NCBI GenBank assembly: GCA_033065855.1
Contig: JAVXUO010001315.1
Location: forward strand, 124,001 to 188,000
Direction of reading: 5' to 3'
Source of the DNA: Escallonia rubra
Taxonomy: Eukaryota; Streptophyta; Magnoliopsida; Escalloniales; Escalloniaceae
DNA length: 64,000 bases
Below, in pieces: positions 22,157 to 60,900 of this stretch (positions are counted from its first letter, which is position 1; every line of letters begins with the position of its first letter). The notes below the pieces were generated by a model, which was given only the letters and a program-made list of their open reading frames with translations, had not been told where the DNA came from and ran no database searches. The translations under genes and the position numbers were made by a program.

Positions 22157-22190
22157 TACGCAGTCCCCGGCCGCGCGGTCAACGGATCAG

Positions 22191-22243
<53 letters not shown>
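22157..22243. repeat. MULE end-like sequence and (TA)n
   Basis: The stretch CCGCGCGGTCAACGGATCAG, ending at 22190, matches the outer right end of MULE 1 (GCGCGGTCAATGGATTAGCT at 31405-31424). It is followed by about 25 TA units (22192-22242) and then by the left end of MULE 1. The two ends are therefore inverted across the TA tract. It is probably a truncated neighbouring copy of the same family. Confidence 0.6.
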
Positions 22244-22244
<1 letters not shown>

Positions 22245-22500
22245 AACTGATCCGTTGACTGGGCGGGCAACTTGGACTAAGTTGCTCTCGCGATTTGGTC
22301 GTCCATCCTTAGAAGATGGACGGCCCAAATCTTCTTTTTTTATAAAAAAAACCCGTCTGCTACACGGTCTTTTTTACCAAAATACCCCACTCTAGCCGTC
22401 CGCTACACAGTGTAGTGGACGACTTTTTGACTGACAAGTGTCACATCTTGTCTCCCCACATCGTCCGCTAGACAGTGTAGCGGACGGCGTGATAGATATA
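22244..22500 (+). repeat. MULE 1 left terminal inverted repeat
   Basis: Aligned by eye with the complement of about 31125-31427, the two arms share the palindromic AACTTNGNCTAAGTT near the tip and CTTTTTGACTGACAAGTGTC. They also share CCGCTACACAGTGTAG-type hairpins (two here), the same unit that forms the internal arrays. The arm differs from its partner by many substitutions and small indels, so the insertion is old. Confidence 0.8.
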
Positions 22501-23061: not shown

Positions 23062-25336
23062 ATGTTTGATTTCGTGTCAAGCTCGAACACCCCAGTAGAT
23101 ACTAGTGATCCATATCTAGGGCGAACGTTTCGAACATTGGAAGAAGCCGAAGAATGTTTTCGAGCGTATTCGTTGAGGGTTGGTTTTGACATTAGAATCA
23201 AGACAACTAGAACAAGCAACATAACAAAAAAAATATGCTCTCGCTTATACGAGTGTCATAAGAGAAGACACCCATTCTAAAATGAGAAACACGTCGGTAA
23301 TGATGATGGTGATGACGAAATAGGATATGCGCGGATAAGACATGACTTCTTTGATTTGCGTGCACATATTGCAAGGTCAAGATGTTTGTAAGCCAAAAAA
23401 CCAAAGCAAGATAATTGGCTTATTACTAGCTTGGAATTGGCACACAATCACCCGTTAGTAACCCCTTTCAAGGTGAGTCAGATGCAGCAACACAAGAAGA
23501 TGAGTAATGTCGCACGGAGCCTGATTCACACAATGAGTAATGCGCAGATAGGACCTACCGACATTGTTAATGTTCTTGCTGAACAGGCTGGGGGAATTCA
23601 GAATCTGAACTTTAACACGACAAACGTTCGTAACACGGTCAGAACCCAAAGACGAGCCGCGTATGACCTCAATGATGCTCAATCCACAGTGAGCCTATTG
23701 AAGCCGATGCAGATGGAGGACTCGCAGTTTACCTACGAGTATAAACTTGACGACGAGCATCGAATTACCACAATTTTTTGGGTCGACGGTCGTTCGAGAC
23801 TTGCTTATCAGTATTTTTTGGATGTTGTGACTTTCCACACCACGTACCGTACCAAGAAGTACTCGATGCTATTTGCTCCTTTCACAGGCGTTAATCATCA
23901 TTATCATTCCATACTGTTTGGATTCACATTGTTAAGGGATGAGAGCAAGAGTTCTTTTGTATGGTTATTTAAGACGTGGCTGGAAGCCATAAACAACAAA
24001 GCACCTAAAGTTATCATCACATATCAAGATTTGACAATAAAGAAGGCTACAGTCTTCCCAGATATCCGACACAACTTGTGCACTTGACACATAAGCAACA
24101 AATATCCTGAACGTCTGCATCACGTGTATGCAAAGTATCCAGACTTTAAACAAGTTTTTGATAGGTGCGTTAACAAGTTGTTAACGATTGAGGAATTTGA
24201 AGAGAGGTGGGAAAAGCTTGTTGAGGATTACTCATTGCAAGACCACGAGTGGCTCCAACACTTGTATGAGCTCAAAGAACAATGGATTGGCGTTTACACG
24301 AGAAGGTATTTTTCCGCGGGCATAAAAACGACGGGCAGTAGTGAATCTATGAATGCCTTGTTCGATAGTTATGTAGATACAACTACGAATTTGAAGAGTT
24401 TCGTCACATCTGCCTAAAAGGCGGTTGCACATATATTCGTGAAAGAAAGGGATGCGGACTTTGCAAGCATGTACAAACAAAGGAGAAGGTTGCTTGAGAC
24501 CCCGTTGGAGGTGAATGGTGCAAAAGTCTATATGAAGGAGATGTTCATGCAATATTAAGTAGAGTTGCAAAAATCGGGACAATACAGTATAAATAATGTG
24601 GCAGAAAAGTCTACACATGAGTACAAGGTCTATTCGTTGATGAACGACCTCGCCCCTAGGAAGGTGCATAGACTGTATACGGTGAGCCACGACACAGAGA
24701 CGGATTCGGTGACATGTGTTTGCAAGAAGTTTGAGTTCCATGGCATGCTGTGTAGACACATTCTACGGTTTTTCACCCAAAAGAATTTCAAGGCAATCCC
24801 TGATAAATACATCTTACCGCGGTGGACTAAGGTTGCAAATAGGTTGCATGGTACCATTGCCTTTCTGGAGCATCTGTATACTGGCTTTGAAGAATCAGAG
24901 ACGTTGCGGTATAATCATATGGAGACAATGCTTACACATTTCTTTGTATAGGGTGCTGCTACAATGGCCGGATATAAACATCTCCGCGAGATAGCAAGAG
25001 TCCATCATCGACCAGTTTGAAGTAGCTTCAATCAACAATGCGGTTGACACTGAGCCTACGCAGGGATCAGAAGATGATGAGCCGGTTAAGGAAGAGGATA
25101 ATGATATCCGGCCTTTGGATCCAATTATATCGCAAACAAAAGGTCGCAAGAGATCTACACGGATGAAGAGCTCTATTGAACAAGAAACTCAACCTAAAAA
25201 GTTGAGAATGTGTGCATTGTGCAACAAAATGACCAACCATGACAAACAGAACCATTACAAGGCACTGGTGATAAGTCCAAGGGGTTTACAAGACGAGGAA
25301 GAAGATGATGCCGAAGAAGATGCAGTGGACCTTTAG
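23062..25336 (+). pseudogene. FAR1/FRS-type MULE transposase, decayed
   Basis: One reading frame from 23062 to about 24951, broken by stops, with a frame change before the C-terminal tail (25115-25336). Domains in order: a FAR1-like DNA-binding region (GRTFRTLEEAEECFRAYSLR, about residues 19-75); the MULE catalytic domain with DVVTFHTTYRTKKYS (first Asp), NNKAPKVIITYQDLTIKKA (second Asp) and GSSESMN (candidate Glu); a SWIM zinc finger (CVCKKFEFHGMLCRH); and a C-terminal Cys/His cluster (CALCNKMTNHDKQNH). In intact relatives it cuts and pastes the element by binding the terminal repeats. In-frame stops follow HKRRHPF (23278), HNLCT, FVTSA, MFMQY and LTHFFV. It cannot make a full protein. Confidence 0.9.
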
Positions 25337-25547
25337 TCTAAAAATTTATTGTAATAATCTTTTATGAGCCATCAAGTCTATTGGCGTTGTATTTGAATTA
25401 TAGACTTTGTAATAATCCTAGATGTGTATTCATACTAAAATTTTACCGTACCATTTGGTTATTCTCGAATTGTGTTTCTTGACCATCTGAATTTTAATGT
25501 ACTCTTGTAGAAACATTGCATCCAATGCTAAGATTTTTTTTTTGTTT

Positions 25548-26445
25548 TGATCGTCCACTACACTATGTAGCGGATAGCCAAGCCGAAACACTGACCTCCA
25601 ACACTTAGAATTTTTTTTTGGTGTTATGCCATCCGCTACACTATGTAACGGACGACCAAGTAGAAACATTGGCCTCCAACACTTAGAATTTTTTTGGGCG
25701 TTTAAGCCGTTCGCTACACTATGTAGTAGACGGCCAGGCAGAACCATTGGCCTCCAACACTTAAAAGAATTTTGTGTGTTTAGACCATCCGCTACAGTTG
25801 CGGACGACCAAATAGAAACATTGGCCTCCAACACTTACAATTGTTTTGGTGTTTAAGTCGTTGGCTACAATATGTAACGGACGGCCAAGCAGAAAAATTT
25901 GCCTCCAACACTTAGATTTTTTTGGTGTTGAGAACGTCCGTTATACTATGTAGCGGACGGCCAAGCAGAAATATTTGCCTCCAACAATTAGATTTTTTTT
26001 GGTGTTTAGGCCGTCTGCTACACTATGTAGCGGACGGCTAAGCAGAAACATTGGCCTCCAATACTTAGAATTTTTTTGGTGTTTAGACCGTTTGCTACAC
26101 TATGTATGTTTTGGTGTTTAGACCGTCTGCTACACTATGTAGCGGACGGCCAAGTAGAAACATTGACCTCCAACACTTAGAATTTTTTTTGGCGTTTAAG
26201 GTCATCCGCTACACCATGTAGCGAACGGCCAAGCGGAAACATTTTTTGGTGTTTAGACCGTTCGCTACACTATGTAGCGGACGACCAAGGAGAAGCATTG
26301 GCCTCCAACACTTAGAATTTTTTGGTGTTTAGATCGTCCGCTGCACTATGTTGGACGGCCAAGCCGAAATATTAGCCTCCAACTTAGAATTTTTTTGGTG
26401 TTTAAGCCTTCTGCTACACTATGTAGCGGATGACCAAGCAGACTA
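25548..26445. repeat. Palindrome array between convergent genes, MULE 1
   Basis: About 13 imperfect tandem units of about 55-85 bp. Each holds the hairpin CCGCTACACTATGTAGCGG or a variant, followed by GGCCAAGCAGAAACATTGGC, CTCCAACACTTAGAATTTTT and TGGTGTTTA. The same hairpin occurs in the terminal inverted repeats, which suggests a transposase-binding or structural motif. The array fills the gap between the 3' ends of the transposase and the PMD-Ulp1 gene. The small open frames in it are repeat artefacts. Confidence 0.92.
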
Positions 26446-26689: not shown

Positions 26690-29615
26690 TATTCCTAACT
26701 AGTCTAGGCCGTCCTCTATGAATTTGTCAAGCTATCCTATATCTAAAGTTTTCTACGTCTGCTTCGCTCCAGACGGCCGCCTTGAGGCTCTACATCAAGA
26801 TGAAGACGCCGCAGTCTGAATGATTAGCTCGTATGGGCCTCCGTTTCTTCAATCGAACTACAAGATTCGGCTTCGTCGGTACTCTTTGTCCATGGAGAGA
26901 GTGGCCATGGCACAAAGCAGATCCCGTGGACAAATAAAATCGGCGTAAGCTACGAGATAACAATTACAATAAGCAAATTAAGAAATAGAAAATCCTAACA
27001 ACAATCGAAAGATTACCATAGCATCCAATTGTTCTTTGAAAAGTTTCTTCACGGGCATCATTTTGGCATCGTTGTGGAAAATGTCGAGGATTGATATGAC
27101 CATATTTTTTGGTTTATAGCAAACCAAGTACCAGTGGGACTGATCCAAGAAGGGTAATATGAAGGCGTCTGCATCACGGACGTTCACCAATGGAGCAAGC
27201 ATGCAGTGAGCGAACTAGGATGACGCCAATGGAGCAAGCTTCTCCTCCCCCTCACAAATTTACACTATTGCCATTCTCCACAAAGCATGCCATGAAAAAG
27301 CGCATCCATCATAAAAACGCGGGGATACGCATTGCCCCTATCCCTTTCCCGACGCATCAAAAGTTTGGTGCAGGTAGACATCACAGTATCTTCCAACCAA
27401 CGACATCAGAGAATCCACCACAAGACATAGTAATCCATATTATTGGGGCAATTCACACCACTTTCTGGTTGTAGCTGGGAGGGGGGGGGGACTCGTTGAA
27501 GTAACGTTGGTGGATTATGGCACATTGTTTCTGGCTTTAGAGGCTTCAACGGATGCACTTTGGGATAAGCAGGGTCGACCGGGGGATATTGTCCTCCTTG
27601 AGGCTCTTCGGGTATCCTAAGGTCGTAAGGTCCCGCCCACGGGGTGACGAGTGGCAGTGACTCGGAAAGATTGAAGTTTGCAAAGTTGAAGTCTTGTGTG
27701 ACTTGACTCCGAGAGATTGGTGTAACTTCCGGGTCCCCAAGCAAAGCAAACGAGGGACCATTGAACTTATCCCTCGCTCACATGGGGAGGCTGCCACCCA
27801 GGATAATCCATTCCCAAGCTCACGCCCGAAGGCTATACCGTATAACAGCTCACAAACTCCCCGCAGTCATGCTCCAATATCTCAGCATGGGAGCGAAGAT
27901 TCGCTCTCATGGCATCCAGCAGATCCTTTCGCCCACTCAACTTCTTTAAGAAGACGGGCGAGGCATCAACCTACATCCAAGTAGATAATAAGTAACTTCA
28001 AACACGAATGAGATTGAATGCAAAACTACGAGATCTAATTTAATTAAAAGCATTAGGAAACTTACGAGCTCAAATGCCCTACGCTCATCGATTTGACCCT
28101 TAAGGTGGTACTTCTGGCCTCTTGTCCACCTTATTGGGGCTATTCTCTTCTGGGTGATGCAGTATTACCACTCGAGATACTGCTCAATGCTGACCACGGG
28201 GTCAAGCTCCGACACAATGCCCATCGACGTGTCTTTCCAAGAACCCCACATTTCAATTTCGGTAGCGTACAATTCGATCGCATTCACCTGGCCAAACCGT
28301 TGGACACCCGGTGTGTTCCTATTAACCCTCATATCTGGGGCGTCAACTGGCAACCCCTGCAGGTAGTCAAAATGGCGCATTGCACGATCTGGTAGTTGCC
28401 ACTCCGTGATCTCGAAGTGGATCAGTGGTGTGCGTTGTAACCCGGAGAGCGTGAAGACGAACGACTCTGCCACCCGTCCCGTCAAACGTTTGTACGGCGC
28501 CCAACACATTGGCCCAGAGATAGCAAGTCGAACTCTCCCCGATAGAATACGATGTTGTGATGGGGATCATCTTTCCTCGGATAGTGGCTCTCCCTCCGAC
28601 TGTACTCCCAAGCGCACAACCGAGGCCACACATTATTGGTTCCCTTCCTACGGTTGGGTGCGCCGACAGTAATGTGTTCATAAGACCACACCTAAGAACA
28701 AAGACAAATTAGGGTTGTATCGTCAAAATTTATTATGCACTGACTAATAAAAAAATATCGAAAACGTAATTACAAAGAGATATGATATACCTGCAACAAT
28801 GAAAGACATGCACATATAGCTTTGAAGTCGGGCCTCGTACGCGTTGCCTTGTGCAATGCTCGATACAAGTATGCAAGAGTTGCTGCACCCCAGGCATACT
28901 CCCCAACCTCTTGCAAGTTGCCCAACAATGCTAAATATTTGGTTTGAACCGTATTCTTCGGCGTCGTTAGGAATATAATTGCCTCCATCACCCATAGCAG
29001 GAAGGCCTTTGTGTGCAGCACAAGCATCTCCTCCGTGTAGTACTCCGGCAAAACCCCAAAATTTTCTACCAACCACCTCAACTTTATGCCACCACTGTTA
29101 AATTCATTCTCAAGTATCGAAGTAAAGAAGCCCTTAATAGCTCTTTTAGATGTTGCGGAAGACCGAGAAGCAATTATCGGATGCCCCGTCACCGGTAACC
29201 CTAAGATGAACCCTACATCTTCTAAGGTTATTGTCATCTCTCCAAGAGGGAAGTGAAACGTATTCGTTTCACTTCTCTATCGTTCACAAGGGCACCTATT
29301 AAGTTTCGGTTAATTTTGTTGAAAGATATCCCCATGAGTAAAAACCCCAATACCAATTCCCCGCAGCAATTTTTTCTGAAATTTATTCAATCTCTAGTTT
29401 TGGAATTGTTTGGTTTTTTCTGTTGTGATGAGTGGTGCTCTTTCCTACGAATTAACAAAGACTATTTAAGCAAAGCAAAAGGTGTACAATGTTTGTGAGA
29501 ATAAGAAAATAAACAGAAATTAAGTATCTTACTGTCCATTCTAGATAGATGTACTAATATGGTTTTCTTGGTCGTATAATACGGATGGATCTTTTAGTCC
29601 AGGGATAAAGGCCAT
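26690..29615 (-). pseudogene. PMD-Ulp1 (C48 peptidase) composite gene, decayed, copy 1
   Basis: Exon 1 (29615 to about 29533) encodes MAFIPGLKDPSVLYDQ and onward, with Trp changed to a stop. Exon 2 (29444-28791) holds the plant mobile domain core (FHFPLGEMTITLEDVGFILG then LPVTG; GNLQEVGEYAWGAATLAYLY). Exon 3 starts at 28691 (VWSYEHITVG; ALGSTVGGRAT; HFEITEWQLPDRAM). A Pro/Ser-rich linker follows (SQVTQDFNFANFNLSESLPL). The C-terminal half is a Ulp1-like cysteine peptidase: AFILPFLDQSHWYLVCY carries the His, ISILD the Asp and NHSDCGVF (near 26810) the catalytic Cys. Ulp1-family enzymes remove SUMO-like modifiers; the substrate here is unknown. Several frameshifts and stops break it. The intron positions match copy 2. 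Confidence 0.85.
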
Positions 29616-29705
29616 TTTTGCGACTGAAATTATGAAAAAACGTCAAGTTTGGAAGTTTTTATCAAACGCTGACAAATTACCAACGCTATACATACAACGC
29701 TAGTA

Positions 29706-30802
29706 TAGAGATGTCAAACGGGTCGGGCGGCCCGCGGCCCAGCCCGACCTGGCCCGAAAAAAGCCTCGGCTGGCCCAGCCCTTTTATGAACAGTGCAGGC
29801 TCGAAGGAATAGGGCCTTGGACCGGGCCAAGGTTTCAGGAAAAATGGCCCGGGCTAGGCCCAGCCCTAAAAAAGCCCAAAAAAGCCCGGCCCGATTTTGG
29901 CCCGGATTCGGCCTTAAATTTGGCCCAAATTCTGGGCTGGCCCACTTTTCTTTTTAACTTTTTCTTTCAACCAACTATTTTGGTAATTTTTTTAACAAAA
30001 CAGTTAACTTTTTCTAATGTGTATCTTACTAAAATAAAACTCTTTCTTTCAACCTACTATTTTGTTAATTTTTTTGGCAGTTATAAACTTTTAATGGCGC
30101 CATGTAGCAAAATATGGAACATTTATTTAATGATAAAAGTGAGTTCAAGTATATCTTCCCCTTCCCCTTGTCTATATGTTTTGCCAAATTAAAATCCTAG
30201 TTGCGGCCATGATTTGAAAAGAGGCCCCGTCTGACAAATGACAATGGCTCGATGACTAGACAAAATGTCAGTGATAATAAAAATAAAAAAACATGATGTT
30301 AATATTGTTGATAATAATGTTTCGAGATTTTTAATATGAGTTAATGATTCCGACGATTGCAACCTCTTTGCCGTGGTCATGGTTTTACAATAAAGATAAG
30401 GATGTGTATAGAAAAGGAGGAAGTAGACAAACTAATGAGAGAGTCACCCATGTTTAGCTGCTAGTGCCCCTCTCGTGTAACAGGAACCATACTACAATGT
30501 CAGTGGGGACCTCTTACACTAGTTTCAGTTGGCGATTGAGACTTGTGATGTTGCTCCAAGTCTCCAACCATTTAATTTATAGATGTGAATAACAAGGAGT
30601 TAAGAACAGGAAGAAAAAAAATATTGGGCCCGGGCTCGGCCCTAAATATTGGGCCTAGGGCCAGGGCTTGGACTGGGCCCAAATATCCCAGATTTCAGGC
30701 CCGGCCCGGTTTCTTTTCTTTTGGCCCGGCCCCGACTCTTTTTGTTGGAAGCCCGCTGGGCCCGGGCTGGGACGGCCCGAACCCGGCCCATTGACATATC
30801 TG
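29706..30802. mobile_element. hAT MITE with GGCCCGG-rich ends
   Basis: The left end TAGAGATGTCAAACGGGTCG and the complement of the right end (CAGATATGTCAATGGGCCGG) form the terminal inverted repeat of a well-known plant hAT-type MITE design. The subterminal regions are packed with GGCCCGG/CCGGGCC motifs. The centre is AT-rich and non-coding. The flanks retain parts of an interrupted GCTAG motif, but the 8-bp duplication is degraded. It lies just upstream of exon 1 of the copy 1 PMD-Ulp1 gene. Confidence 0.75.
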
Positions 30803-30817
30803 GATAGCACATGCATA

Positions 30818-30843
30818 ACACACACACACACACACACACACAC
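30818..30843. repeat. (CA)n microsatellite
   Basis: About 12 CA units. Its complement, a GT run followed by GCATGTGCTAG, also occurs at about 31463-31495 upstream of the second PMD-Ulp1 gene, so the tract belongs to the shared 5' region of these genes. Confidence 0.9.
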
Positions 30844-31124
30844 GTAATCTAGAAATTGTCAACGCTAGCACATGCATAATACATAATCAAAATCATGCGC
30901 AATACTCACAAACTCTAGATTATACACAAATAAATGATTGATTTGTGAACTTACGTGATTAATTAGACGATTAAAGGAATTCTTGGGAAGAAATTACACA
31001 GATCTATTTGCCAACGTAGCTGGGAAGATAGGGAAGAAGAAAGAAAGGATGACTTTCGAAGTTAGAGTTTGTTGTATATATATGGGTTGTCCGCTACATT
31101 ATGTAGCAGACGGAGTCCCCGTCT

Positions 31125-31427
31125 GCCACAATATCTAACGGACGGTGTGGGGGGACATGATGTGACACTTGTCAGCCAAAAGTCATTCGTCACACAGTGT
31201 GGCGGACGACTTTTTGACTGATAAGGGTCAGGGTCAAAAAGTCATCCGCTACACTGTGTAGTGGACGGTTAGGGCGGGATATTTTGGTCAAAAAGACCGT
31301 CTGCCACAAAATATGGCAGATGATTTTTTTTTTTCAAAAAAAAAAAATAGACCTGGGTAAGAATGGACGGCCACATCGCGCGGGCAACTTAGCCTAAGTT
31401 GCCCGCGCGGTCAATGGATTAGCTCTC
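31125..31427 (-). repeat. MULE 1 right terminal inverted repeat
   Basis: The complement of the left arm, ending GCGCGGTCAATGGATTAGCT before TA-rich DNA. It carries at least four degenerate copies of the CCGCTACA...TGTAGCGG hairpin, two more than the left arm, so the arms have changed by gain or loss of units. Confidence 0.8.
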
Positions 31428-31673
31428 GTATATATATATATAGATATATATATATATATACACGTGTGTGTGTGTGTGTGTGTGCATGTGCTAGTGTTGG
31501 CAAAGCTAGATTTGCCAATGTTTTATAGCAATTTACGAATTTGATGAATTATGTATGTGTAGATGTGTATATAGATGATGTATTATGCATGTGCTAGTGT
31601 TGGCAAAGCTATATTTGTCAAGGTCTGGAGCAATTTACGAACTTGATGTATTTGCTTAATTTCAGTAAAAAAA

Positions 31674-34600
31674 ATGACATTTAATCCCGGACCCGAAAAT
31701 CCCTCCGTCTTGTATGACCAAGTAAACCATATGAGTACAACAATTTGGAATGGACAAGTAAGATACTAATTTTTGTGATTATTCTTTTTAATTTCAATTG
31801 TGAACATTGTATATTTTCCTTAAAGACGCTTTGTTAATTCATAGGAAAGAGATTTACTAAAGAATCCACTTGAATTGTGGAGGTTACACCCGCTTTATAA
31901 GCGTTTGTTGCGTAGGATGGGGTTTGGGGATATTTTTTCCTCAACATGACTGGACTTTAATATGGGCCATCGTTGAACGGTATTTTCACTTCCCTCTTAG
32001 AGAGATAACAATAACTTTAGAAGATGTAGAGTACATCTTAGGATTACCCATGACTGGACGGCCAGTTTGTTTTGGTAAGATTGATAGGCAACATAAAGGA
32101 TTTGCAAGGGACAAATTTGGAGCGATACCCCAAGACTAGTTTGGGCAGAGTAGAATAAAGTTGAAGTGGTTGGTAGAGTCGTTCGCGGTTTTATCAGAAC
32201 CTTTCACGGATGAGATGCTGGTTATGCACACAAAGGCTTTCATGCTCTATGTGATGGGGGCCATTTTGTTCCCAACGATGATGAAGAACACAGTCTACGT
32301 GAAGTATTTATCTCTGTTGGATAACTTGCAAGAGGTAGGCAAGTATGCGTGGGGTGCAACCACACTTGCATACTTGTCTGCACAAAGCAACAAGGATCGA
32401 GTGCAAAGCTATATGTTCATGTCTCTCATTGTTGCAGATGTATCATATCACCCCTTTTTTAATTTTTAGTGATAAATTTTTATTAGTCACTGCACAATTA
32501 GTTTTTACCATACTTCACCTATTTGTCTTTATTATTTTTTTCTAGGTGTGGTTTTATGAACACCTCGGTGTCGGGCGCCCCAACTTAGGCCCAAAACCCA
32601 AAATATATGGCCTTAGTTACGCTCTTGGGAGTACAATCGGAGGGAGAGCCACTACCGGAGAAGAGATAAACCCCATCACAAGATTGTCTTCTATATGTTG
32701 GGCGTTGTACGAGAGATTGAAAGACATGTGGAAAAGTCATACGTTTTTACATTCTCTGGTATGCAGCCCACTCCATTGATCCATTGGGAGATTACAGAAT
32801 GGCAACTACCTGATCGTGCCATGTGATAGTTGGAATGCATGCAAGGGTTGCCAGCAGATGCTCCAGACATGATACCTAATGGGAACCCATCAATTGTGAT
32901 GTTCGGGCATGTAGATGCCCTCGAACTGTGCTTAGAGGAGATTGGACTGTGGGAATCCTAGCAGGACACACTGAAAGCTATGATTTCCGAGCCTGACCCT
33001 GTGATCAGCATCCAGTACAATCTGCAGTGGAATGATCACATTACTCGGAGGAGAATACACCCAGTGTCGTGGGCAATAGGCGAGAAATACCAGCCTAGGG
33101 GTATAATTGAATAGCGAGTTGCATTTGATCTCGCAAGTTTCCTATTTAAGTTCATGTAGCATTCGATCTCATAAATATCCTATTTAAGTTCATGTAGTGT
33201 TTAAGATTTACAAATGATCTAACTTCATGTAAGTTGATGCCTTGCTCGCGTTCTTCTAAAAATTGAATTAATAGAGAGATCTTTTAGGTGCCATGGGAGC
33301 GAATCTTCACTTCTAGGCTTAGACCTTGGAGCATAGCTACGGGGAGTTTGTGAAGGGCTATAGGGGACAACCTTTGGGCATGAGCCTAAGAATGGGTCAT
33401 CCCTCGGGGCAGCCTTAGGGTGTGAGCGACAGAATAGGTAGCCCTCGGGGAAGTCTTCGACCATGAGCGAAGGAATGGGTGATGTTTGGGGGCAATGTTT
33501 GGCTGTGAGCAAGGGAATGGGTAGTCCCTCGAGGAAGTCTTCAACCATGAGCGAGGGAATAAGTGATGCTTGAGGGCACTATTCGGCCGTGAGTGAGGGA
33601 ATGGGTCGGCCCTGGGTGCAGCCTTTGGCTAGGAGCCAGGGAATGGCTCATTGGGACCAATGGAGTCGACGCTCATTTGAGTTTCTTAGGGACTCGTATG
33701 TTACAGAAGATCCCCGAAGTCAAGTCACACAAGATTTGGACTTCGCGAACCTGTCTTTCTCCAAGGCAATGCAACTCGTCCCGTGGTCAGGAACTTCCAC
33801 TTCTGGCCTTGGGATACCCGAAGAGCCTCAAGGAGCAAGTAGGAAAAAAATATCCCCCATGTCGATCCCATCCCTCCTATGTCAAAAGTCATCCGTTGAA
33901 GCCCTTGAAGCCAAAAAAACATGCCTCAGTCTACGAACGTTGCTTAGTGAGCCCCCCAACTATGCTCTCAAGTTCGTGTTCAATATACGGATTATGATGT
34001 CCCATCGATAGTATGTCCTCCCTCGGACTAGATGCTTCATTGGATAATACAGTGATAAATACATATATCCAGCTTCTGATCCGTAGAGAGAGGGATAGGG
34101 GAGATGCGTATCCTCGATTTTTTATGTTCAATACGCTTTTTAGTTCTTTACTCTATGGACATTGCGACCAATGGTGTAAGGCAAAAAAAAGGCAGACATT
34201 GAGTAGCTATCGTCCCGATTCCGCGCTCACTAAAAAAATCACTAATAGTACGAATTCAGTGAGTTACTTGGATGTGGATGTCTTTCTACTACCCGTCGTA
34301 GACCACATCCACTGGTAGCTATGTCTGTTTCAATCGTTGACAGTCTCTGGAACGATATAGTGGATGCCTCTTAAGCAACCTTACAGCGGACCCTTGGGAG
34401 CTATGGTGAGAATATTATTTGTCTTTATAGTTTATCTATGTCTTAATTTAATTTCTTAATTCGACTCTCATAGCTTAAGTGTCTTTTATTATTCTGCAAG
34501 ATTTGTTTTGTTCCATTCTTTGCAACCTCTAAGGGCTTAAAGCACCGGCAAGATTGAAGCTCAATATTTAGGTGAAGAAAAGTAGGCCCATGCAAGTTAA

Positions 34601-34700
34601 CGGATCAGATTGCGGTGTCTGGTGATGTACATGGACTTCATTTGTCAGTCTGAGAGCCTCAAGAAGCACAACTGAAGCCAAGACGATGTAAACAACTGTA
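31674..34700 (+). pseudogene. PMD-Ulp1 composite gene, decayed, copy 2
   Basis: Exon 1 (31674-31757) encodes MTFNPGPENPSVLYDQVNHM and ends IWNGQ at a GTAAG donor. Exon 2 (from 31845) encodes ERDLLKNPLELWRLHPLYKR. After a frameshift near 31935 come FHFPLREITITLEDVEYILG and DNLQEVGKYAWGATTLAYL of the plant mobile domain. Exon 3 (from about 32546) has WFYEHLGVGRPN, YALGSTIGGRATT and EITEWQLPDRAM. A Gly/Ser/Met repeat linker follows at 33366-33650. The Ulp1-like part (about 34025-34700) has YIQLLI, VDVFLLPVVDHIHW (His) and QVNGSDCGVW (Cys, about 34600). Stops include one after FGAIPQD, one after HIHW and one after GVW. The organisation is the same as copy 1, so it is an inherited passenger gene of this MULE family. 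Confidence 0.85.
33366..33650 (+). repeat. Coding tandem repeats in the PMD-Ulp1 linker
   Basis: About five imperfect units of about 55-60 bp containing ATGAGCGAGGGAATGGGT-like sequence. In one frame they encode MSEGMG/VSKGMG/VSEGMG blocks. They lie between the mobile domain and the peptidase of copy 2. Copy 1 has only one or two degenerate units at the same place (about 27760-27860), so the linker has expanded or contracted. Confidence 0.75.
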
Positions 34701-35029: not shown

Positions 35030-35640
35030 CTCTACCGTCCGCCACATTATGTAGCGGACGCCAGGGCAGTGTGCCAAGTCTCTGTTCCAGACAGTGAAAC
35101 ATAATGCTTTTTTGGGGGGTCTTTTTTCTGCTGAAGTTTTGGGACTAAGAACCCGAATTCTAAGTGTTGGGACCAAGAACCCGAATGTTTTCTAAGTGTT
35201 AGAGTGGGTGGTTTCTATCCCATTGTTCACTACACTATGTAGCGGTCGGTAGGACAAAATGCTTAATTGGGAGTCTTTTTTCTGCCTAAGTGTTGGGACC
35301 AAGAACCCCGAATGTTTTCTAAGTGTTGGAGTGGGTGGTTTCTGTCCCCTCGTCCGCTACACTATGTAGCGGTCGGTGGGACAAAATGCTTTTTGGGGGT
35401 CTTTTTTCTGTCTAAATGTTAGGACCAAGAACCCCAAATTTTTTCTAAGCGTTGGAGTGTGTAGTTTATGTCCTTTCATTCGCTACATTATGTAGTGAAC
35501 AGTGAAATATAATCCTTTTTTGGGGGTCCTTTTTATGTTTAAGTGTTGTGACCAAGAACCTCAAATTTTTTCCCAAGTGTTGGAATGCGTAATTTCTGTC
35601 CCCTCGTCCGCTACATTATGTAGCGGACGGTGGGACAAAA
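35030..35640. repeat. Palindrome array between convergent genes, MULE 2
   Basis: About five units of about 110-130 bp, each with a CCGCTACAYTATGTAGCGG-type hairpin and then GGGACAAAATGCTTTTTGGG, CTAAGTGTTGGGACCAAGAA and TTTTCTAAGTGTTGGAGTG. The hairpin is shared with MULE 1 but the spacer is different. The array occupies the same place, between the transposase and PMD-Ulp1 3' ends. Confidence 0.9.
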
Positions 35641-35834
35641 ACTTTTTGTTTAAGCTCGGCAGTTTAGCATGGTTAGTTAACTTGCTAATACACAACTCTT
35701 ACCAAAAATACCAAAAATTGTTCACTACAAGAGTACATTAAAATTCAGAAGGTAAAAAGAAAATTTGTGAATAACCCAATGTTATATCTAAATTAATTAT
35801 GAACACAAGAAAATATTATTACAAAGTCCATAGA

Positions 35835-37297
35835 CTAAAGGTCCACTTCATCTTCTTCGGCATCATCTTCTACCTCATCTTGCAAACCCCTTGGACTTAT
35901 CCCCAGTGCCTTGTAATGGTTCTGCTTGTCATGGTTGGTCATTTTGTTGCAGGATGCACACTTTCTCAGTATCTTAGGTTCGATTGCTTGTTCAATAGAG
36001 ATCTTCACCCATGCAGATCTCTTGCGGCCTTTCATTTATGATATAATTGGATCCAAAGGTTGGATAACATTGTCTTCTTCCTCAACCGACTCATCTTATT
36101 ATGATCCATGTGTAGGAATGCCTTCAGCTTCAGCCGCATCGCTAGCTGAACCTACTTCAAACTGGTCGACAATGGGATCTTGCTCTAGCGTTGGATCGCG
36201 AAGATATTTATATCTGGCTATTGTAGCAGAACCCTTTACAGACAAACGTGTGAACATTGTCACCAGATGATTATAGCGCAACGTCTCTGATTCTTCAAAA
36301 TCAGTAAATGGATGCTCTGGAAAGGTAATGGTATCATGCAACGTGTTTTCAACCTTAGACCACCACGGCAAGACGTATTTATCGGGGATTGCCGATATTC
36401 TTTTGAGTGAAAAAACGCAGAATGTGTCGACACAACATGCCGGAGAACTCAAACTTCTTGCAAACACATGTCACCATATCCGTCTATGTGTCATGATTTA
36501 CCATATACAGTCTATGCATTTTCTCAGGGACAAGGTCGCTCATCAACAAATAAACCTTGTATTCACGTGTAGACTTTTCTGCCACCTTGTTTATACTGTA
36601 TCGTCCCAATTTTTGCAGCTCTACTTGGTTTTGTATGAACATCTCCTACGTATAGACTTTTGGACATTCACCTCTAGAGGGGTCTCAAGCAGCCTTCTTC
36701 TTTATTTATACATGCTTGCAAAATCCGCAGCCCTTTCTTTCATGAATATCTGTGCAACTGTTTTTTGGGTATTTATGATAAAACTCTTCAAATTCATAGA
36801 TTCACTTCTGCCCAACGTTTTCATGCCCGCAGAAAAATACCTTCTGGTGTTAATGCCAGTCCATTGTTTTTTGAGCTCATACAAGTGTTGGAGCCACTTG
36901 TGGCCTTGCAATGAATAATCCTCAAGAAGTTTTTCCCACATCTCTTCAAATTCCTCAATCATAACAACTTGTTAACGCACCTGTCAAAATCTTATTTAAA
37001 GTCTGGATACTTTGCATACACATGATGTAAACGTTTAAAGTATTTGTTGCTATTGTGCCAAGTGCACAAGTTGTGTCAAGTCTCTAGGAAGACTGTAGCA
37101 ATAGCCTTCTTCATTGCCAAATCTTTATCCGTGATGATTACTTTGGGTGCTTTGTTGTTTATGGCTTCCAACCACGTCTTAAACAACCATACAAAAGAAC
37201 TTTCGCTCTCATCTCTTAACAATGTGAACCCTAATAGGATGGAGGGAACGAGCACTGTTCCACAAAAAGGACGGGGATCTGGGGGCATTTTGGACAA
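35835..37297 (-). pseudogene. FAR1/FRS-type MULE transposase, truncated, copy 2
   Basis: Homology to copy 1 starts abruptly in the catalytic domain (SILLGFTLLRDESESSFVWL) and runs through NNKAPKVIITDKDLAMKKA (second Asp, closer to consensus than copy 1) and GRSESMN. It continues to the decayed SWIM region (ARSLSSPACCVDTF in a shifted frame) and the C-terminal Cys/His tail CASCNKMTNHDKQNH. The FAR1 DNA-binding region and first catalytic Asp are missing, and end-like repeats lie directly upstream. Several stops and frameshifts are present. It cannot be functional. Confidence 0.85.
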
Positions 37298-37299
37298 AA

Positions 37300-37800
37300 T
37301 GTCCGTCCGTTACATAATGTAGTGGACAATTTTTTTCTTTGAAGGAACTAGATCTAGTCCATCTGTCCTTTAAGGATTGACGGTCAGATGGCACTGACAA
37401 CTTAACCTAGGTTGCCAACTTCATCTGGATTTGTGGATGGTTCAAATTTGTTTTTCGCGCTTTTTTAAGTACGTCCGCTATATAATGTTGCAGACGATTT
37501 TTTGACAAAAATGTCCATCACCCACACAATCGAATGTGCAACAAAAGTGTCTGTGTGCTACATAATGTAGCGAACGATTTTTTGACAAAAATATCACTCA
37601 CCCACGCAATCGAATGTGCAACAAAAATGTCTGTGTGGTACGTAATGTAGCGGACGACCCAAACCCATTTATGTCATATAAGGAAGTAGGCAATTAAGGA
37701 TCTAGGAACAAGAGCACTGGACCATCCACAAATCGCAGATGGACAGTCAGATAGCGTTGACAACTTAACCTAAGTTGTCTGCGCGCACGCGTGTGCACAG
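37300..37800. repeat. MULE 2 terminal region with duplicated end motifs
   Basis: GACAACTTAACCTAGGTTG (about 37398) and GACAACTTAACCTAAGTTG (about 37760) are two copies of the end motif seen at the MULE 1 tips. Between them ATCTGGATTTGTGGATGGT (37423) and ACCATCCACAAATCGCAGAT (37724) are inverted. Three CCGCTACATAATGTAGCGG-type hairpins lie inside. This may be a small non-autonomous derivative nested at the element end, or a duplicated terminus. Confidence 0.6.
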
Positions 37801-38061
37801 AAACACGCATGCTAACTCATTCCATTCATTTTGATAGTTGCATGTTTGAAAAACTAACGTAGAGCTCCTTAAACAATTTGAAATGGTAGCAAAAATATGG
37901 TTTCTTTTGTGAAAAAAATTGATATTCTTATATTCTTAAAAACATGAAAAGAAATATGAAAAATTGGTGACCAAACAAAGAAGGGAATATACGACTCAAA
38001 GGCTTAGACAAGCTGCGTTTCTCAGTAATTATAACTTAACTTTTGCGGGCGGCTCCAAACC

Positions 38062-38508
38062 TGCTAGAATATTGATCGGGAACCACAGCCGGGAAATGGA
38101 CCTGCAAAATAGAACACAGAATGACTGTTGGGGATGTTCCGGTGGAGGAAGTTCCGATGCTAAAGTCAGAACGTTGTTACAGGGGTGGAGCTCTGAATAG
38201 CAGAAATGTACTAGGTGTGCGTGTGTGTGAACCTGTCTGCGTACCTGGGATAGTCCCTTTTATATAGGCATAGACCGAAGAGTCCCGGTTGGCTTGCATC
38301 TCTTAACAGATAGGCCTTGGACTTGATCAGTTGGGGTTGTGTTAGGATCCTTAGGGATCACGTCACAATCCCTTCTTGATAAAGTTAGTGCCCTTCTAGG
38401 ACGCTAACTCTATCAGTAGGACAACCCTCAAATCCGAGTCAATCGTTAACTATGAGTCAATCTCGCCACATGTCATCATCTGATTGGGCGAGTATTTTTA
38501 GCCATACA
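38062..38508 (-). repeat. 3' LTR of the gag-protease element
   Basis: Runs TGCTAGAATATTGATCGGG to AGCCATACA in plus-strand reading and aligns along its whole length with 43627-44073, with scattered substitutions. It contains TTTATATAGGC and the GTTAGGATCCTTAGGGATCA segment shared with the other LTR. Confidence 0.93.
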
Positions 38509-43588: not shown

Positions 43589-43626
43589 GTTCCCTGTTGG
43601 TCCCACGGATGACGCCAAAATGTTGC

Positions 43627-44073
43627 TGTTAGAATATTGATCGGGAACCACAGCCGGGAAATAGACCTGCAAAATAGAGCACGGAGTGACCGCCGGGGGT
43701 GTTCCGGCGGAGGAAGCTCCGATGTTAAAGTCAGAACGTTGCTACAGGGGTAGAGCTCTGAATAGCATAAATACACTAGGTGTGCGTGTGTGTGAACCTG
43801 TCTGCGTACCTGGGATAGTCCCCTTTATATAGGCATAGACCAAAGAGTCCCGGTTGACTTGCATCCCTTGACAAATGGGCCTTGGACCTGATCAGTTGGG
43901 GTTGTGTTAGGATCCTTAGGGATCACGTCACAATCCCTTCTTGATAACGTTAGTGCCCTTCTAAGATTCTAACTCTATCAGCAGAACAACCGTCAAATCC
44001 GGTTCAATCGTTAACTATGAGTCAATCTCCCCACGTGTCATCATCTGATTGGGTGAGTATTTTTAGCCATATC
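43627..44073 (-). repeat. 5' LTR of the gag-protease element
   Basis: Runs TGTTAGAATATTGATCGGG to AGCCATATCA in plus-strand reading and matches the 38062 LTR in length. The internal side carries the primer-site-like sequence and the gag start, which fixes this as the 5' LTR of a minus-strand element. Confidence 0.93.
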
Positions 44074-57664: not shown

Positions 57665-58791
57665 TCAGGGGTTCCCGAGTCCCGGATCTGGATCCTGCTG
57701 AACCGGGGCCGGGGCGGCTGGTCCAGCAGTGCCCTGCTCCCTCATCATCCGGCACACCACTGTAGCAATGCGCTGGATATCCTCCTCGTTCAACTGAGGC
57801 CGAGGAGCCGGTGTCTGTGGAGGGGCAGCAGGGGGTGAGGACGCTCCTATCACGGCACGAGGAGTCGTGCTAGGCAGGCCGCGTATGCGGCCTTTCGGCC
57901 GATTCACGACCTCCGGCGTATCCAGCCATCGCTTCAACCCCCCAGTACTCGCAGCCGTACTAGTGGACGCTGATGGCTGTCCGGACTGCTGCTCGGACCC
58001 CCTTAGCTGTTCATACGAGGCCTGCAAAAATAGTGGTTTAACGATATGTTAGGGCATTAATTAACGAAACAGACATTGAGGATAGAAAGAAAAAACATTA
58101 ACTTAAATAAATTGACTCACATCGATCCGCCGGGCAATATCTGAAATATAGTCGCCCGCCTGGTGCGTCTCGTCCTTGTCCTTCTTCCGCACGTGCGTCT
58201 GAGTATAGGTCAGAGCTATGACCTCATCCTCCTCTAGATCCGGGTGCTCGACCGCGTTCATGTGTCGGACGATGTCGTGTGGCACCGACCCCCCCATGTG
58301 CGTCGGATCTCTGTTCTGTCTGTTCTCAGCCCCGCTCTTACTCTTGGCGTCCCAACCTGGATCCGCAGCCCACCGATCTATCATCTCCCCCCATACACCG
58401 TGAGATATCCAATGTGGGGGATATTTCGTCATGTCCGTCATCGGGGCACCCGCGGGCAGCGCCTTCTTCGCCCGGTCCCGTGCATCGTGGAGCCATCGGC
58501 GGTAATTCTTGCCGATGTAGGCAAAGAAAGCCTGCTGCCCCAGTCCCTGCTGCTCAGGCGTATCAAACGTGAACCCCTCCTGTAAGGCATTCAATAACAC
58601 AAATTAACAACATAAAACAGACAGTAATTTAACATTTACCAACGCTGAAAAAAATACTTCACCGTACCAGCCACTCCTCCCATAGGGCCTCCCTCGCAGC
58701 GGCATCCCAGTCCTTCCAGTACAGGCGTGGCTCGAAGAATCGGCCCTTCACAAGAACGCCGATCTTCGTCCTCGCCATATTCTCCAGGATC
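57665..58791 (-). CDS. Ptta/En/Spm-type (TNPA-like) protein gene, 3' exons
   Basis: Three exons on minus: 58791-58668 (MARTKIGVLVKGRFFEPRLY, then WKDWDAAAREALWEEWL), 58579-58121 and 58021-57665, with GT-AG introns and compatible phases. Exon 2 carries the plant transposase Ptta/En/Spm signature: WLHDARDRAKKAL, HWISHGVWGEMIDRW and SKSGAENRQNRD, then HMGGSVPHDIVRHM. Exon 3 is a Pro/Ala-rich linker plus a C-terminal helical piece (EEDIQRIATVVCRMMREQGT). Such proteins bind subterminal repeats with the TNP2/TNPD transposase. The downstream exons are free of stops. The 5' exons are missing, replaced by the TNP2 fragment in a different frame. Confidence 0.85.
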
Positions 58792-58795
58792 CTGC

Positions 58796-59403
58796 CAAAG
58801 AAGTTTCCTCATCATATTCTTCGCGTCATAGTACGACGGCGGTAGCTTTTCACTTTCGGGCAGTATTTCTTTGATGAAGGTAACAAACTCGTTAAAACCT
58901 TTCTCACTCAGCCCGTGGTCTGATTTCAACTGTAATAACCTACTAACCGCAGACAGCCGTGTGTGTTTCGGAGCTCCATCCCACATCGGCTCTTCCGCAG
59001 CTCTCAACAACTCATAAAACTGATGAGCCCCCTCGTTCGGCGGCTGTGGCCTGTCGTTACCCCAGTCAACATTAGCATGCCCAGCATCCATAATCATATC
59101 TCGGAAATCATATCGTGCCTCCTCCCTAACTTCAGTTTGACTAGCCAGGTTGGACGACAATACTATCGTTTCCCCGTGCTGCGTCCACCTTGTGTATCCA
59201 CCCATAAAACCGTACCGACGAAGATGCCATTTTACTTCAATTCTTTTTCTCCAGTGCAACAACTCACATCTACCGCACGGGCACCTTATCTTAGCAAGGT
59301 CAACATGTGCAGGATGCGCATAAGCGAAGTCGAGAAATTCGTCAACGCGACACTCAAAATCTTCAGCATTCTTCCTTTTCATCCAACTTCGATCGACTGA
59401 CAT
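58796..59403 (-). pseudogene. TNP2 transposase N-terminal fragment
   Basis: Begins MSVDRSWMKRKNAEDFECRV with a good ATG and includes the transposase-associated domain (about residues 1-80) with IRCPCGRCELLHW. It continues through FYELLRAAEEPMWDGAPKHT and EILPESEKLPPSYYDAKNMM, a segment that precedes the DDE catalytic domain in TNP2 proteins. There, near 58796, homology stops and the sequence passes into a TTTGGCAG splice-acceptor-like motif of the Ptta gene. About two thirds of a normal TNP2, including all catalytic residues, is missing. Confidence 0.88.
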
Positions 59404-60059
59404 GACGACTGAATTATCGTACTGTATATCACCTTCAATAATGACCAGTGTTTAGGCATTGCCGATGTAAATATCAATGCATGAATGTTACAACATGTCT
59501 ACATATTTCCCCTCCACTCTTGAACAGGTAGTGGTCCTATCCCATTCAGAAAAGCACATGTTTATAAAACAGTGAATAACTCATGCTTAGTCCGATGTCT
59601 GTGGAAAATTCGGCAGCACCTCCCCGCATTTCTCCAAGTACACCACATCGATTAGGTGTTCTAACATTCATCTAACCTTGCTCAGGAAGGTTTGACGGAT
59701 GTTAGAACACCAGATCTGTATGCACCGGAGAAACACACGAGAACGTGTACCAAATATCCACGACATTCATTACAAGGCATTACTTTGTAATGAGTACCTT
59801 TGAACGGGAACTAAGGGTTTCTATGCATGCATGTGTTCAGAAATTGATAAGATATGCAAGAATCTTTCCGAAATATCAAAACTGCAGAATGATCGTTGCA
59901 TATGTTATCAATTCCACATTAAATAGAACTCGTTGACAACGAGTTGAACCATCTCGTTGCCAATGGACTTCTCAAAACAACAATTAATATAAAGAAGGCA
60001 GGGTTTGTAAACAACGAGTAATTGAACCATCTCTGGGCAACATGGAGTAATTATGGGAT

Positions 60060-60900
60060 GTACAAGGGCTAATTAGGGCTAACTGGGTTATTAGGGTTAA
60101 TTACGATTATTAATTATAGCTGATTAGAGTTGATTAGGACTAATTAGGGTTATTTAGTCCTAATTAGGGTTTAATTGTGCCGAGTAGTGATGATTAGTCC
60201 TAATTAGGGCTAATTGGGCTTAATTGGGTTATGTTAGGGCTAATTAATGTTAATGAGGGATAGTTTCGGATGATTATAGCTGACTAGGGTTGATTAGGAC
60301 TAATTAGAGTTATGTAGTCCTAATTAGGGTTTAATTGTGCCGAGTAGTGCTGATTAGTCCTAATTAGGGCTAATTAGGCTTAATTGGGTTATGTTATGGC
60401 TAATTAATGTTAATGAGGGCTAGTTTCGGATAATTATAGCTAATTAGGGTTGATTATGACTAATTAGGGTTTAATTGTGCCGAGTAGTGATGATTAGTCC
60501 TAATTAGGGCTAATTAGGCTTAATTGGGTTATGTTAGAGCTAATTAATGTTAATGAGGGCTAGTTTCGAATAATTATAGCTAATTAGGGTTGATTAGGAC
60601 TAATTAGGGTTATTTAGTCCTAATTAGGGTTTTGATGGTGCCGAGTAGTGTTGATTAGTCCTAACTAGCGCTAATTAGGCGTAATTGGGTTATGTTAGTG
60701 CAAATTATGACTAATTAGGCTAACTACAATCAATATGCGCATAATTGGGTTCATTTGGGCTAATTTGAGGTAATTACAGCTAATTTGAATTTCATCAGGT
60801 TCTTAGGGTTAATTAAAACTAATTAGGCTCGTTAGAGCTAATTAGGGTTAATTGATTTACTAAAATATTGTTAATCAGGACTAATTAGGGCTAATTATAG
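60060..60900. repeat. TAATTAGGG-rich higher-order repeats
   Basis: Dense TAATTAGGGCTAATTAGGG-like motifs are organised in longer units of about 140-160 bp, marked by CCGAGTAGTG at about 60180, 60340, 60480 and 60641. The TTAGGG core resembles telomeric repeat, but the array is too irregular to be telomere. It is inside the CACTA element. Confidence 0.85.

Follow-up and report, generated by a model that had tools for sequence, protein, structure and literature searches.

What function could join a plant mobile domain (PMD) to an Ulp1-type (C48) peptidase within a transposon? The question is raised by 64,000 nt of the Escallonia rubra genome (GCA_033065855.1, contig JAVXUO010001315.1, positions 124,001 to 188,000, forward strand; hereafter the window), in which two such genes lie beside Mutator-like (MULE) transposases. 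The ingredients are already known separately. MAIN and MAIL1 are required for transposable element (TE) silencing, and an anti-silencing use of MULE-captured PMDs has been proposed (PMC5418596, PMC7156037); capture of ULP sequences by MULEs is described as frequent (PMC2528002); and the VANC proteins of VANDAL elements, which are described as non-TIR MULEs (PMC13317346), are anti-silencing proteins with a DUF1985 domain, in systems with tandem linkers and non-coding motif modules (PMC5735166, PMC10398659).

The window contains two dead copies, A and B, of a plant DNA transposon family of which this genome holds many better-preserved members; stops and frameshifts mark both copies as decayed. 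Copy A extends from ~22243 to ~31428 and has TIR-like ends in (TA)n. On the transposase side, a (TA)n microsatellite (22188–22242) adjoins the TIR (22243–22500), which has a 23-bp palindromic module at 22463; positions 22201–22341 are 83% identical to the TIR of a relative, L029, with (TA)n counted in. On the PMD side, the TIR (30911–31428, 68% identical to the L029 TIR side) is followed by a (TA)n-like run (31429–31460) that ends copy A immediately 5′ of copy B. The decayed FAR1-type MULE transposase of copy A (23392–25336, plus strand) contains Pfam matches to the MULE domain (23392–24087, plus strand, E = 1.8e-20) and to SWIM (24559–24951, plus strand, 2.2e-4), and shares 73–87% amino acid identity with the transposase segments of L029 and another relative, L030 (tblastn). 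The 77-bp tandem repeats at 25507–26442, with degenerate GTCCGC..GCGGAC palindromes, lie between this gene and the decayed PMD-linker-C48 gene (26660–29620, minus strand), which was delimited by Pfam, exon similarity, and splice sites. Its exon 1 starts at ~29615, the PMD exons reach ~28060 with the linker and C48 beyond, and introns 1 and 2 have GT-AG ends. The PMD is clear at 28773–29276 (minus strand, 1.5e-40), with a second match slightly below the curated score at 28168–28566 (minus strand, 2.9e-8); the C48 profile match is weak (27268–27405, minus strand, 0.11), the catalytic half being recognized through similarity to relatives and through its HW..ILD..SDCG motifs.

In copy B, the PMD-linker-C48 gene (31670–34725, plus strand) was placed by Pfam and exon similarity and has a stop, frameshifts, and damaged splice sites. 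Its PMD gives two matches (31861–32136, 1.4e-9, and 32140–32466, 3.2e-13, both plus strand) and its C48 one (33998–34315, plus strand, 4.9e-7), separated by a tandem-repeat linker of 42/84-bp units (33390–33606, plus strand). The decayed transposase (35831–37270, minus strand; tblastn and an inverted match to that of copy A, 84–91%) is convergent to it, with 127-bp tandem repeats (35159–35648) between the two genes that include a palindromic module at 35606, another module lying just before them at 35037. Repeats of 80 bp (37477–37657) lie near the transposase-side end, at ~37.3–37.7 kb, and no PMD-side TIR of copy B was recognized in the window. The order of PMD, repeat linker, and C48, and the convergent transposase beside each copy, are thus as the first-pass annotation had described them. 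The elements continue past both limits of the span it had given (26690–34700). Its statement that the boundaries of exons 1, 2, and 3 agree stands for the intron positions, which align in the two copies; in copy B, the sites themselves are damaged (AT at the intron 1 donor, GC at the intron 2 donor, and AA at the intron 2 acceptor).

Close relatives of the window gene number in the dozens in the surrounding 566-Mb genome. The PMD-to-C48 stretch is colinear in 36 of the 40 scored places for subfamily 1 and in 34 of 40 for subfamily 3, to which the window copies are closest, and this recurrence rules out a chance juxtaposition. In subfamily 1, the predicted gene has four exons, in which PMD, tandem-repeat linker, and C48 are joined over three predicted GT-AG introns; the third, inside C48, was revealed by the relatives and is absent from the earlier exon scheme. 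When 17 copies of subfamilies 1 and 2 were spliced in silico, nine gave uninterrupted proteins of 889–911 aa with no letter altered, six were broken, and two did not follow the splice-site patterns. One uninterrupted protein of ~890 aa (L018) matches both the PMD (PF10536, E = 1.2e-71, 242 bits for a curated score of 34.9) and C48 (4.7e-20, 72.8 bits for 20.7). All uninterrupted proteins seen belong to subfamily 1. L036, of subfamily 2, is broken when spliced, and the PMD2 of L035 is interrupted by a stop; none of the three subfamily 3 copies read is uninterrupted, as intron 1 is missing from L029 and its exon 2 has a late stop codon, L030 lacks C48, and L048 has a frameshift within the linker. 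The start motif and the positions of introns 1 and 2 are identical in subfamilies 1 and 3, between which synonymous sites are saturated, and these shared intron positions favor a single fusion event over an independent joining of the parts, of which we saw no case. Two adjacent genes are ruled out by the conserved phase-0 introns, the GTAAGT donors, and the uninterrupted spliced proteins; a general, rather than copy by copy, reading gave no hint that PMD and C48 were separate genes with their own starts. At the level of predicted splicing, PMD, linker, and C48 therefore form one gene, as first proposed.

The carrier was likewise characterized from its sequence: it is a TIR-bearing MULE of the FAR1 type that lies at (TA)n microsatellites and contains two convergent genes. 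L029 has TIRs of 296 bp, 97.3% identical with (TA)n counted, with both genes between them; in C2034 and C815, the TIRs reach ~1.8 kb (97% identical) and ~2.1 kb (91%), and element size varies from ~7 kb (L029) to >11 kb (C815). In relatives, transposase frames with minimum lengths of 646, 662, and 656 aa each contain FAR1, MULE, and SWIM domains, and in L018 a single open frame matches all three (PF10551, 8.6e-33; FAR1, 9.7e-15; SWIM, 2.6e-7). In 16 of the 20 loci retrieved, the PMD-C48 gene and the transposase have a convergent arrangement. Runs of at least eight TA occur in 14 of the 20 stretches, not each of them shown to be an element end; (TA)n lies at both ends of L029, in runs on both sides of L030, and at the flanks of window copy A; in all three, it would mask a target site duplication of 8–11 bp. 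The TIRs and transposase domains thus support the view that a MULE carries the gene beside its own FAR1-type transposase.

A new point of this analysis is the kinship between PMD and DUF1985 that their profiles suggest: they cross-match in both directions, PMD exons matching DUF1985 with E-values as low as 2.4e-8, and one DUF1985 gene in turn matching PMD at 1.6e-6. For a curated DUF1985 score of 35.1 bits, the L018 protein and exon 1 of L018, L036, and L044 score 28.0–34.5, L029 and L030 13.8–16.2, and three genomic exon copies (L040–L042) exceed the threshold with 36.1–37.9; the ~890-aa protein itself, at 28.0 bits, falls below it, which counts against a VANC-like reading. Neither L001 nor L002, two PMD genes of a different type, matches DUF1985, the ~890-aa protein has no DUF287 match at E ≤ 0.01, and no C48 motif was visible by eye in the translated stretch of a true DUF1985 gene (L039 with L047). 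DUF1985 and C48 co-occur in at least 11 pairs, from 145 DUF1985 places against 124 C48 places, these being part of about 150 listed of 284, so that 11 is a lower bound. Among the loci read, the nearest PMD outside the family is L008 (48% over PMD1), and among PDB sequences the PMD exon had only a weak match (E = 0.22). PMD frames of 596 and 685 aa were also observed.

In Ulp1, the catalytic His and Asp are 17 residues apart and the Gln stands six residues before the Cys. The C48 domain of the relatives has the complete His-Asp-Gln-Cys set with this same spacing; Cys and Gln are kept in 10 of 11 aligned C48b copies, and His and Asp in the aligned C48a copies, L013 having lost the catalytic Cys. 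The set is incomplete or broken in both window copies: copy A has Arg at the position of the Gln, six residues before the Cys, and copy B a stop codon directly after HW. The best solved relative is SENP2 (3.3e-7), the match coming mostly from the Cys half; both AlphaFold models are poor (pLDDT 37). The dN/dS ratio (ω) across copies, which the first-pass annotation had put forward as a check, indicates purifying selection on the PMD exons (five comparisons gave ω 0.26–0.50, with each bootstrap interval lying below 1) and a looser regime in the first half of C48 (C48a, ω 0.58–0.77, upper bounds 1.01–1.20), near-neutral in places, ω reaching or exceeding 1 in several close pairs. For C48b, one of the two comparisons has an interval below 1, and pairs vary from 0.25 to above 1; some near-identical PMD2 pairs give 0.58–0.87. 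In the transposase, the TPC segment has ω 0.36 (0.16–0.84), and the TPM row is uninformative (0.17–2.42); two rows for the N-terminal segment (TPN) were dropped because their dN of 0.44 and 1.05, despite 87–92% DNA identity, indicates frameshifted stretches. Given the purifying selection on the PMD exons, the earlier term "passenger" is probably wrong.

The linker consists of tandem peptide repeats, and the non-coding parts of the elements carry palindromic modules specific to the subfamily (GTCCGCTA..TAGCGGAC and CAATCGCA..TGCGATTG). In L048, 38 GTCCGC motifs occur in 2.5 kb, compared with a mean of 0.84 over 200 shuffles, and their density peaks in the intergenic stretch between the 3′ ends of the two genes; in L029, modules lie near both element ends and GTCCGC is dense there.

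Several of these features recall known systems. Kaonashi (KIU)/VANC of the Arabidopsis VANDAL MULEs is likewise a MULE-borne second gene with an Ulp1 domain, and in KI-MULEs the Ulp1 gene is described as running opposite to that of the transposase (PMC13317346). VANC and KIU have DUF1985 where our elements have the related PMD, and both systems combine tandemly repeated peptides with non-coding tandem repeats that contain short motifs specific to the family. On the other hand, unlike VANC/KIU as described, the present gene has a full PMD above the curated cut-off, a FAR1-type transposase, (TA)n flanks, and no DUF287 match, and its anti-silencing role is one that we infer; the TIRs, too, set it apart from VANDALs and count against a VANC-like reading. 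The MULE-captured PMD-C genes of grasses and Amborella also place a PMD inside a MULE and have been proposed to act in anti-silencing (Ikeda et al. 2017), but there the PMD is described as fused to the transposase, whereas here it belongs to a separate convergent gene and is joined to Ulp1. In grapevine, melon, and rice, MULEs that carry ULP sequences, Jittery-like ones included, share the Ulp1 domain (Benjak et al. 2008 and references therein), while no PMD is mentioned in that account ("mobile domain" has 0 occurrences in PMC2528002). Among the TA-microsatellite MULEs MuTAnT, TAFT, and SaTar, which also lie in (TA)n, the TA-targeting AutoMuTAnT has a Jittery-like transposase, but it is described as a 4.9-kb element with a single ORF (PMC4486113), shorter than the two-gene elements found here. 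Finally, genic fusions such as MAIL3-PP7 and the "protease" fusions (Nicolau et al. 2020) also join a PMD to an enzyme domain, sometimes a protease; these are described as host genes, unlike the multi-copy transposon gene reported here.

Because it joins a silencing-linked domain to a SUMO-protease-like enzyme beside a transposase, the PMD-Ulp1 gene is a good anti-silencing candidate. We tentatively favor, at somewhat less than even confidence, a reading in which the putative spliced product is an element-encoded helper acting like the VANC/KIU proteins of VANDALs. The DUF1985-related PMD and the variable linker would direct the protein either to palindromic modules in the non-coding parts of its own element or to complexes of the MAIN/MAIL type. 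At those sites, the peptidase would strip SUMO, or a similar modifier, from silencing factors, and this removal would keep element copies expressible.

The same protein might instead help transposition, by binding modules in both the TIRs and the subterminal repeats and aiding the transposase, while its peptidase would process or de-SUMOylate the transposase or repair partners. The modules and dense GTCCGC near both ends of L029, together with the convergent arrangement in 16 of 20 loci, would suit such a helper; however, the motif is densest in L048 between the 3′ ends of the genes, and the Jittery-like AutoMuTAnT has one ORF only, and we regard this role as rather unlikely. That the gene comes from captured host sequence and plays no role itself, its PMD and Ulp1 parts having been fused and then copied passively as in Pack-MULEs, seems improbable: ULP capture is described as common, six of the 17 spliced copies are broken, ω for C48a is near 1 in some pairs, and none of the copies read in subfamilies 2 and 3 is intact, but ω intervals lie below 1 for PMD1, PMD2, and one of the two C48b comparisons, nine of the 17 copies are intact, and the gene is common to subfamilies with saturated dS. 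We give similarly little credence to the idea that the protein, through its PMD, acts on host MAIN/MAIL-PP7L complexes as a dominant-negative or decoy, its peptidase being secondary or decaying. The part played by MAIN/MAIL1 in TE silencing, the proposed anti-silencing by captured PMDs (PMC5418596, PMC7156037), and a PMD more constrained than C48a are in agreement with a decoy, whereas the retention of the catalytic residues in nearly all aligned copies and the constraint on C48b in one of two comparisons are not.

The anti-silencing reading could be extended, though we consider this wider proposal doubtful, to a second, TIR-MULE-borne VANC-like lineage, in which PMD and DUF1985 would form one superfamily, MAIN/MAIL and the anti-silencing proteins would be kin, and each subfamily's own module would be the target and the SUMO protease the effector. 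Three questions meet here: how PMD proteins contribute to transposon silencing, how VANC proteins un-silence them, and why transposons repeatedly acquire Ulp1. A single multi-copy PMD-Ulp1 gene, together with the PMD-DUF1985 kinship at profile level and the candidate target repeats, links all three in a form testable with one protein.

The PMD (Plant Mobile Domain) exons, the C48 (Ulp1-type peptidase) fragment and the MULE transposase were all recovered by Pfam at the places where the first-pass annotation had put them, which confirms the observation of PMD and C48 copies beside a MULE transposase. In copy A, the transposase lies at 23392–25336 (+) and the PMD-C48 gene spans roughly 29615–26660 (−); copy B shows the mirror arrangement, and the two transposases give inverted matches at 84–91% identity. 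Both copies contain stops and frameshifts. Six residues ahead of the Cys, copy A carries Arg instead of Gln; in copy B, HW is followed by a stop, and the splice sites of introns 1 and 2 are altered. Copy A ends within (TA)n on both sides, near 22243 and 31428, and these ends are similar to the terminal inverted repeats (TIRs) of a relative; a search for the PMD-side TIR of copy B found none. Elsewhere in the window, a Transposase-associated domain (PF13963, 7.4e-18), typical of CACTA elements, lies at 58639–59451 (−), and dense repeats with a 20-bp register occupy 60110–60719. Two 300-nt direct repeats (38061–38360 and 43626–43925; 92% identical, about 5.6 kb apart) could be LTRs; four ORFs tested from the interval gave no Pfam match at E ≤ 0.01.

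From the 566-Mb assembly containing the window, 20 loci were fetched around matches to PMD or C48. In 19 of them (the exception being L030), C48 lies downstream of PMD on the same strand, a share biased by selection on either domain. A transposase segment was present in 17 (none in L021, L022, and L036), downstream and convergent in 16 and on the opposite side in L019; several fetched stretches stop short of its expected position. Three subfamilies can be distinguished: 1 (e.g., L018), 2 (L035, L036), and 3 (L029, L030, L048), the last being the nearest of the three to the window copies. Queried with the PMD-to-C48 DNA of L018, 36 of 40 scored places matched over 2,870 or more of the 2,962 bases, with 93–100% identity, the remaining four being partial or split. 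The L029 query was covered in 34 of 40 places (six partial), in 33 of these 34 as two pieces that break at an intron missing from L029. These counts are lower bounds, as 40 places were scored out of 1,172 (L018) and 1,515 (L029) candidates. Identities of 96–99% among the 33 subfamily-3 places suggest a recent spread; of these places, L048 is the one whose transposase and TIRs were read.

That PMD and peptidase belong to one gene, as first proposed, and that a MULE carries it, are both borne out at the level of sequence. Copies of subfamilies 1 and 2 share a start (M-DFNP), a phase 0 intron 1 (after ..LLQ, before VWSYE), a phase 0 intron 2 (GTAAGT donor, before VD) and a third intron, about 84 bases long and located within C48, the exact ends of which were deduced from alignment. 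When 17 of these copies were spliced by script, with no letter changed, nine gave predicted proteins of 889–911 aa reaching the DCG motif, six were interrupted and two could not be traced by the splice pattern; the L018 product has 890 aa, with PMD at 72–421 and C48 at 670–873. Subfamily 3 has the same type of start and keeps the position of intron 1 in L030 and of intron 2 in L029, which lacks intron 1 where its relatives carry about 120 extra bases. None of the three subfamily-3 copies read encodes an uninterrupted protein: a stop interrupts exon 2 of L029 near its end, C48 is absent from L030, and the frame of L048 changes within the linker repeats. Between subfamilies 1 and 3 (subfamily-2 copies included), dS is saturated and dN is 0.37–0.41 in the first PMD exon, 0.53–0.62 in the second, 0.81–0.95 in the His/Asp (HW) half of C48, and 0.56–0.60 in its Cys half. 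We infer a single old PMD-C48 fusion, passed down along with the transposase. Judged from shortened ORF readings, three loci are apparent deletion derivatives: in L040, PMD exon 2 passes into C48 sequence soon after it begins, exon 3 is seemingly replaced in L041, and C48 is seemingly missing beside the transposase in L044.

In L029, both genes are enclosed by 296-bp TIRs (97.3% identical, (TA)n included). Longer TIRs were obtained by joining adjoining stretches in contigs C2034 (1,777 bp, 97.1% identical) and C815 (2,093 bp, 91.1% identical, containing three 311-bp tandem units). Fourteen of the 20 stretches scanned contain runs of at least eight TA, which do not all necessarily mark an element end; such runs flank both sides in L029 and L030, and in L018, L019, L021, and L033 shared homology begins at a TA run or within about 20 bases of it. 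These flanks recall the MuTAnT, TAFT, and SaTar MULEs, described as inserting in TA microsatellites (PMC4486113, PMC5907723). Open frames of at least 646 (L018), 662 (L020), and 656 aa (L029) contain FAR1, MULE, ZSWIM-type RNaseH, and SWIM domains.

The dN/dS comparison proposed at first pass (NG86, intervals by codon bootstrap) favored constraint on PMD, with intervals reaching above 1 in the HW half of C48. The ratio was 0.28–0.50 in the first PMD exon (three pairs) and 0.26 and 0.32 in the second, all intervals being below 1; it was 0.25 (0.12–0.55) and 0.27 (0.08–1.02) in the Cys half and 0.58 (0.35–1.01) and 0.77 (0.49–1.20) in the HW half. A wider pair table includes ratios above 1 in some close pairs for either C48 half and of 0.58–0.87 in some near-identical pairs for the second PMD exon. 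These estimates thus indicate that PMD is under constraint and that the Cys half is probably maintained by selection, the other half being loose or fast-evolving. The best solved relative of the peptidase by sequence is SENP2 (3.3e-7; Cys half 24.2 bits, HW half 7.4 bits), found with an ORF translated straight through the small third intron and aligned with HW, D, and Q..DCG in register. The spacing (H to D 17, Q six before C) agrees with that of Ulp1; in L013, a Tyr replaces the catalytic Cys.

The linker is a tandem array of 60-bp units in L018 and 33-bp units in L029, a likeness to VANC proteins, whose variable regions contain tandemly arrayed peptide motifs and whose targets evolve through tandem repeat formation, according to Hosaka et al. 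(PMC5735166). Non-coding parts of subfamily-3 elements show a strong enrichment of a 23-bp palindromic module, GTCCGCTA..TAGCGGAC (L048 intergenic, C1818). The L048 intergenic stretch has 38 GTCCGC/GCGGAC (200 shuffles: mean 0.84, maximum 4), its 8-kb locus 20 modules of the GTCCGC-N-GCGGAC type, and the L029 element eight. The three exact modules in the window (22463, 35037, 35606) all lie within copies A and B; GTCCGC occurs 0 times in 1–21000 and four times in 40001–64000. L018, the one subfamily-1 locus counted, has none of these modules, and its TIR carries four CAATCGCA-N-TGCGATTG palindromes with 8 half-sites, against a mean of 0.055 and a maximum of 1 in shuffled sequence. The fusion protein may bind the palindromic modules; the main rival reading is that the transposase binds them instead.

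Exon 1 matches DUF1985 over most of the profile in L018 (1.3e-7), L036 (6.7e-7), and L044 (2.4e-8), and weakly in L029 (0.06) and L030 (0.01). Of eight loci cut out around DUF1985 matches in the genome, seven (L040–L046) are the transposon PMD exon, three of which exceed the curated score on their own, and the same 256-aa frame recurs at many further places among the matches listed. The remaining one of the eight, L039, is clearly a gene of DUF1985 type and matches PMD (1.6e-6). The mutual matches lie at 3491–4258 in L018, 1411–1932 in L039, and 1429–2196 in L044. L008, which we take to be MAIL-like, matches DUF1985 at 5e-4; a profile search gave no DUF1985 match for L001 and L002, presumably PMD-B-like. 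The curated DUF7745 score is exceeded by the L018 exon, not by those of L036 or L044. Because each profile matches members of the other, PMD and DUF1985 may form one superfamily. Four neighboring PMD genes (L001–L004, C922:1278226–1296817), with the whole PMD in single frames of 643–689 aa, are the top PMD matches among those listed and are about 20% identical to transposon PMDs.

A figure legend draws VANC proteins with a DUF1985 domain (PMC5735166), and the link from PMD to a VANC-type domain is unexpected and worth a proper test. Published work describes PMD-C captured by MULEs, with the anti-silencing idea raised (PMC5418596), PMDs of transposable elements as a possible way to counter silencing (PMC8616336), fusions of genic PMDs with "protease, kinase or metallo-phosphatase" domains (PMC7156037), ULP inside MULEs of several plants, in KI-MULEs oriented in reverse to mudrA (PMC2528002), and KIU as a VANC carrying Ulp1 (PMC13317346). 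In the open-access literature, we found neither PMD joined with Ulp1 and a transposon or with peptidase C48, nor "mobile domain" beside "Ulp1 protease family" or DUF1985; DUF1985 and Ulp1 occur together in one paper. Databases of protein domains may already list a PMD-C48 architecture. The function of the fusion protein is inferred, and the PMD-C48 gene is a new addition to the MULE-borne Ulp1 genes known before.
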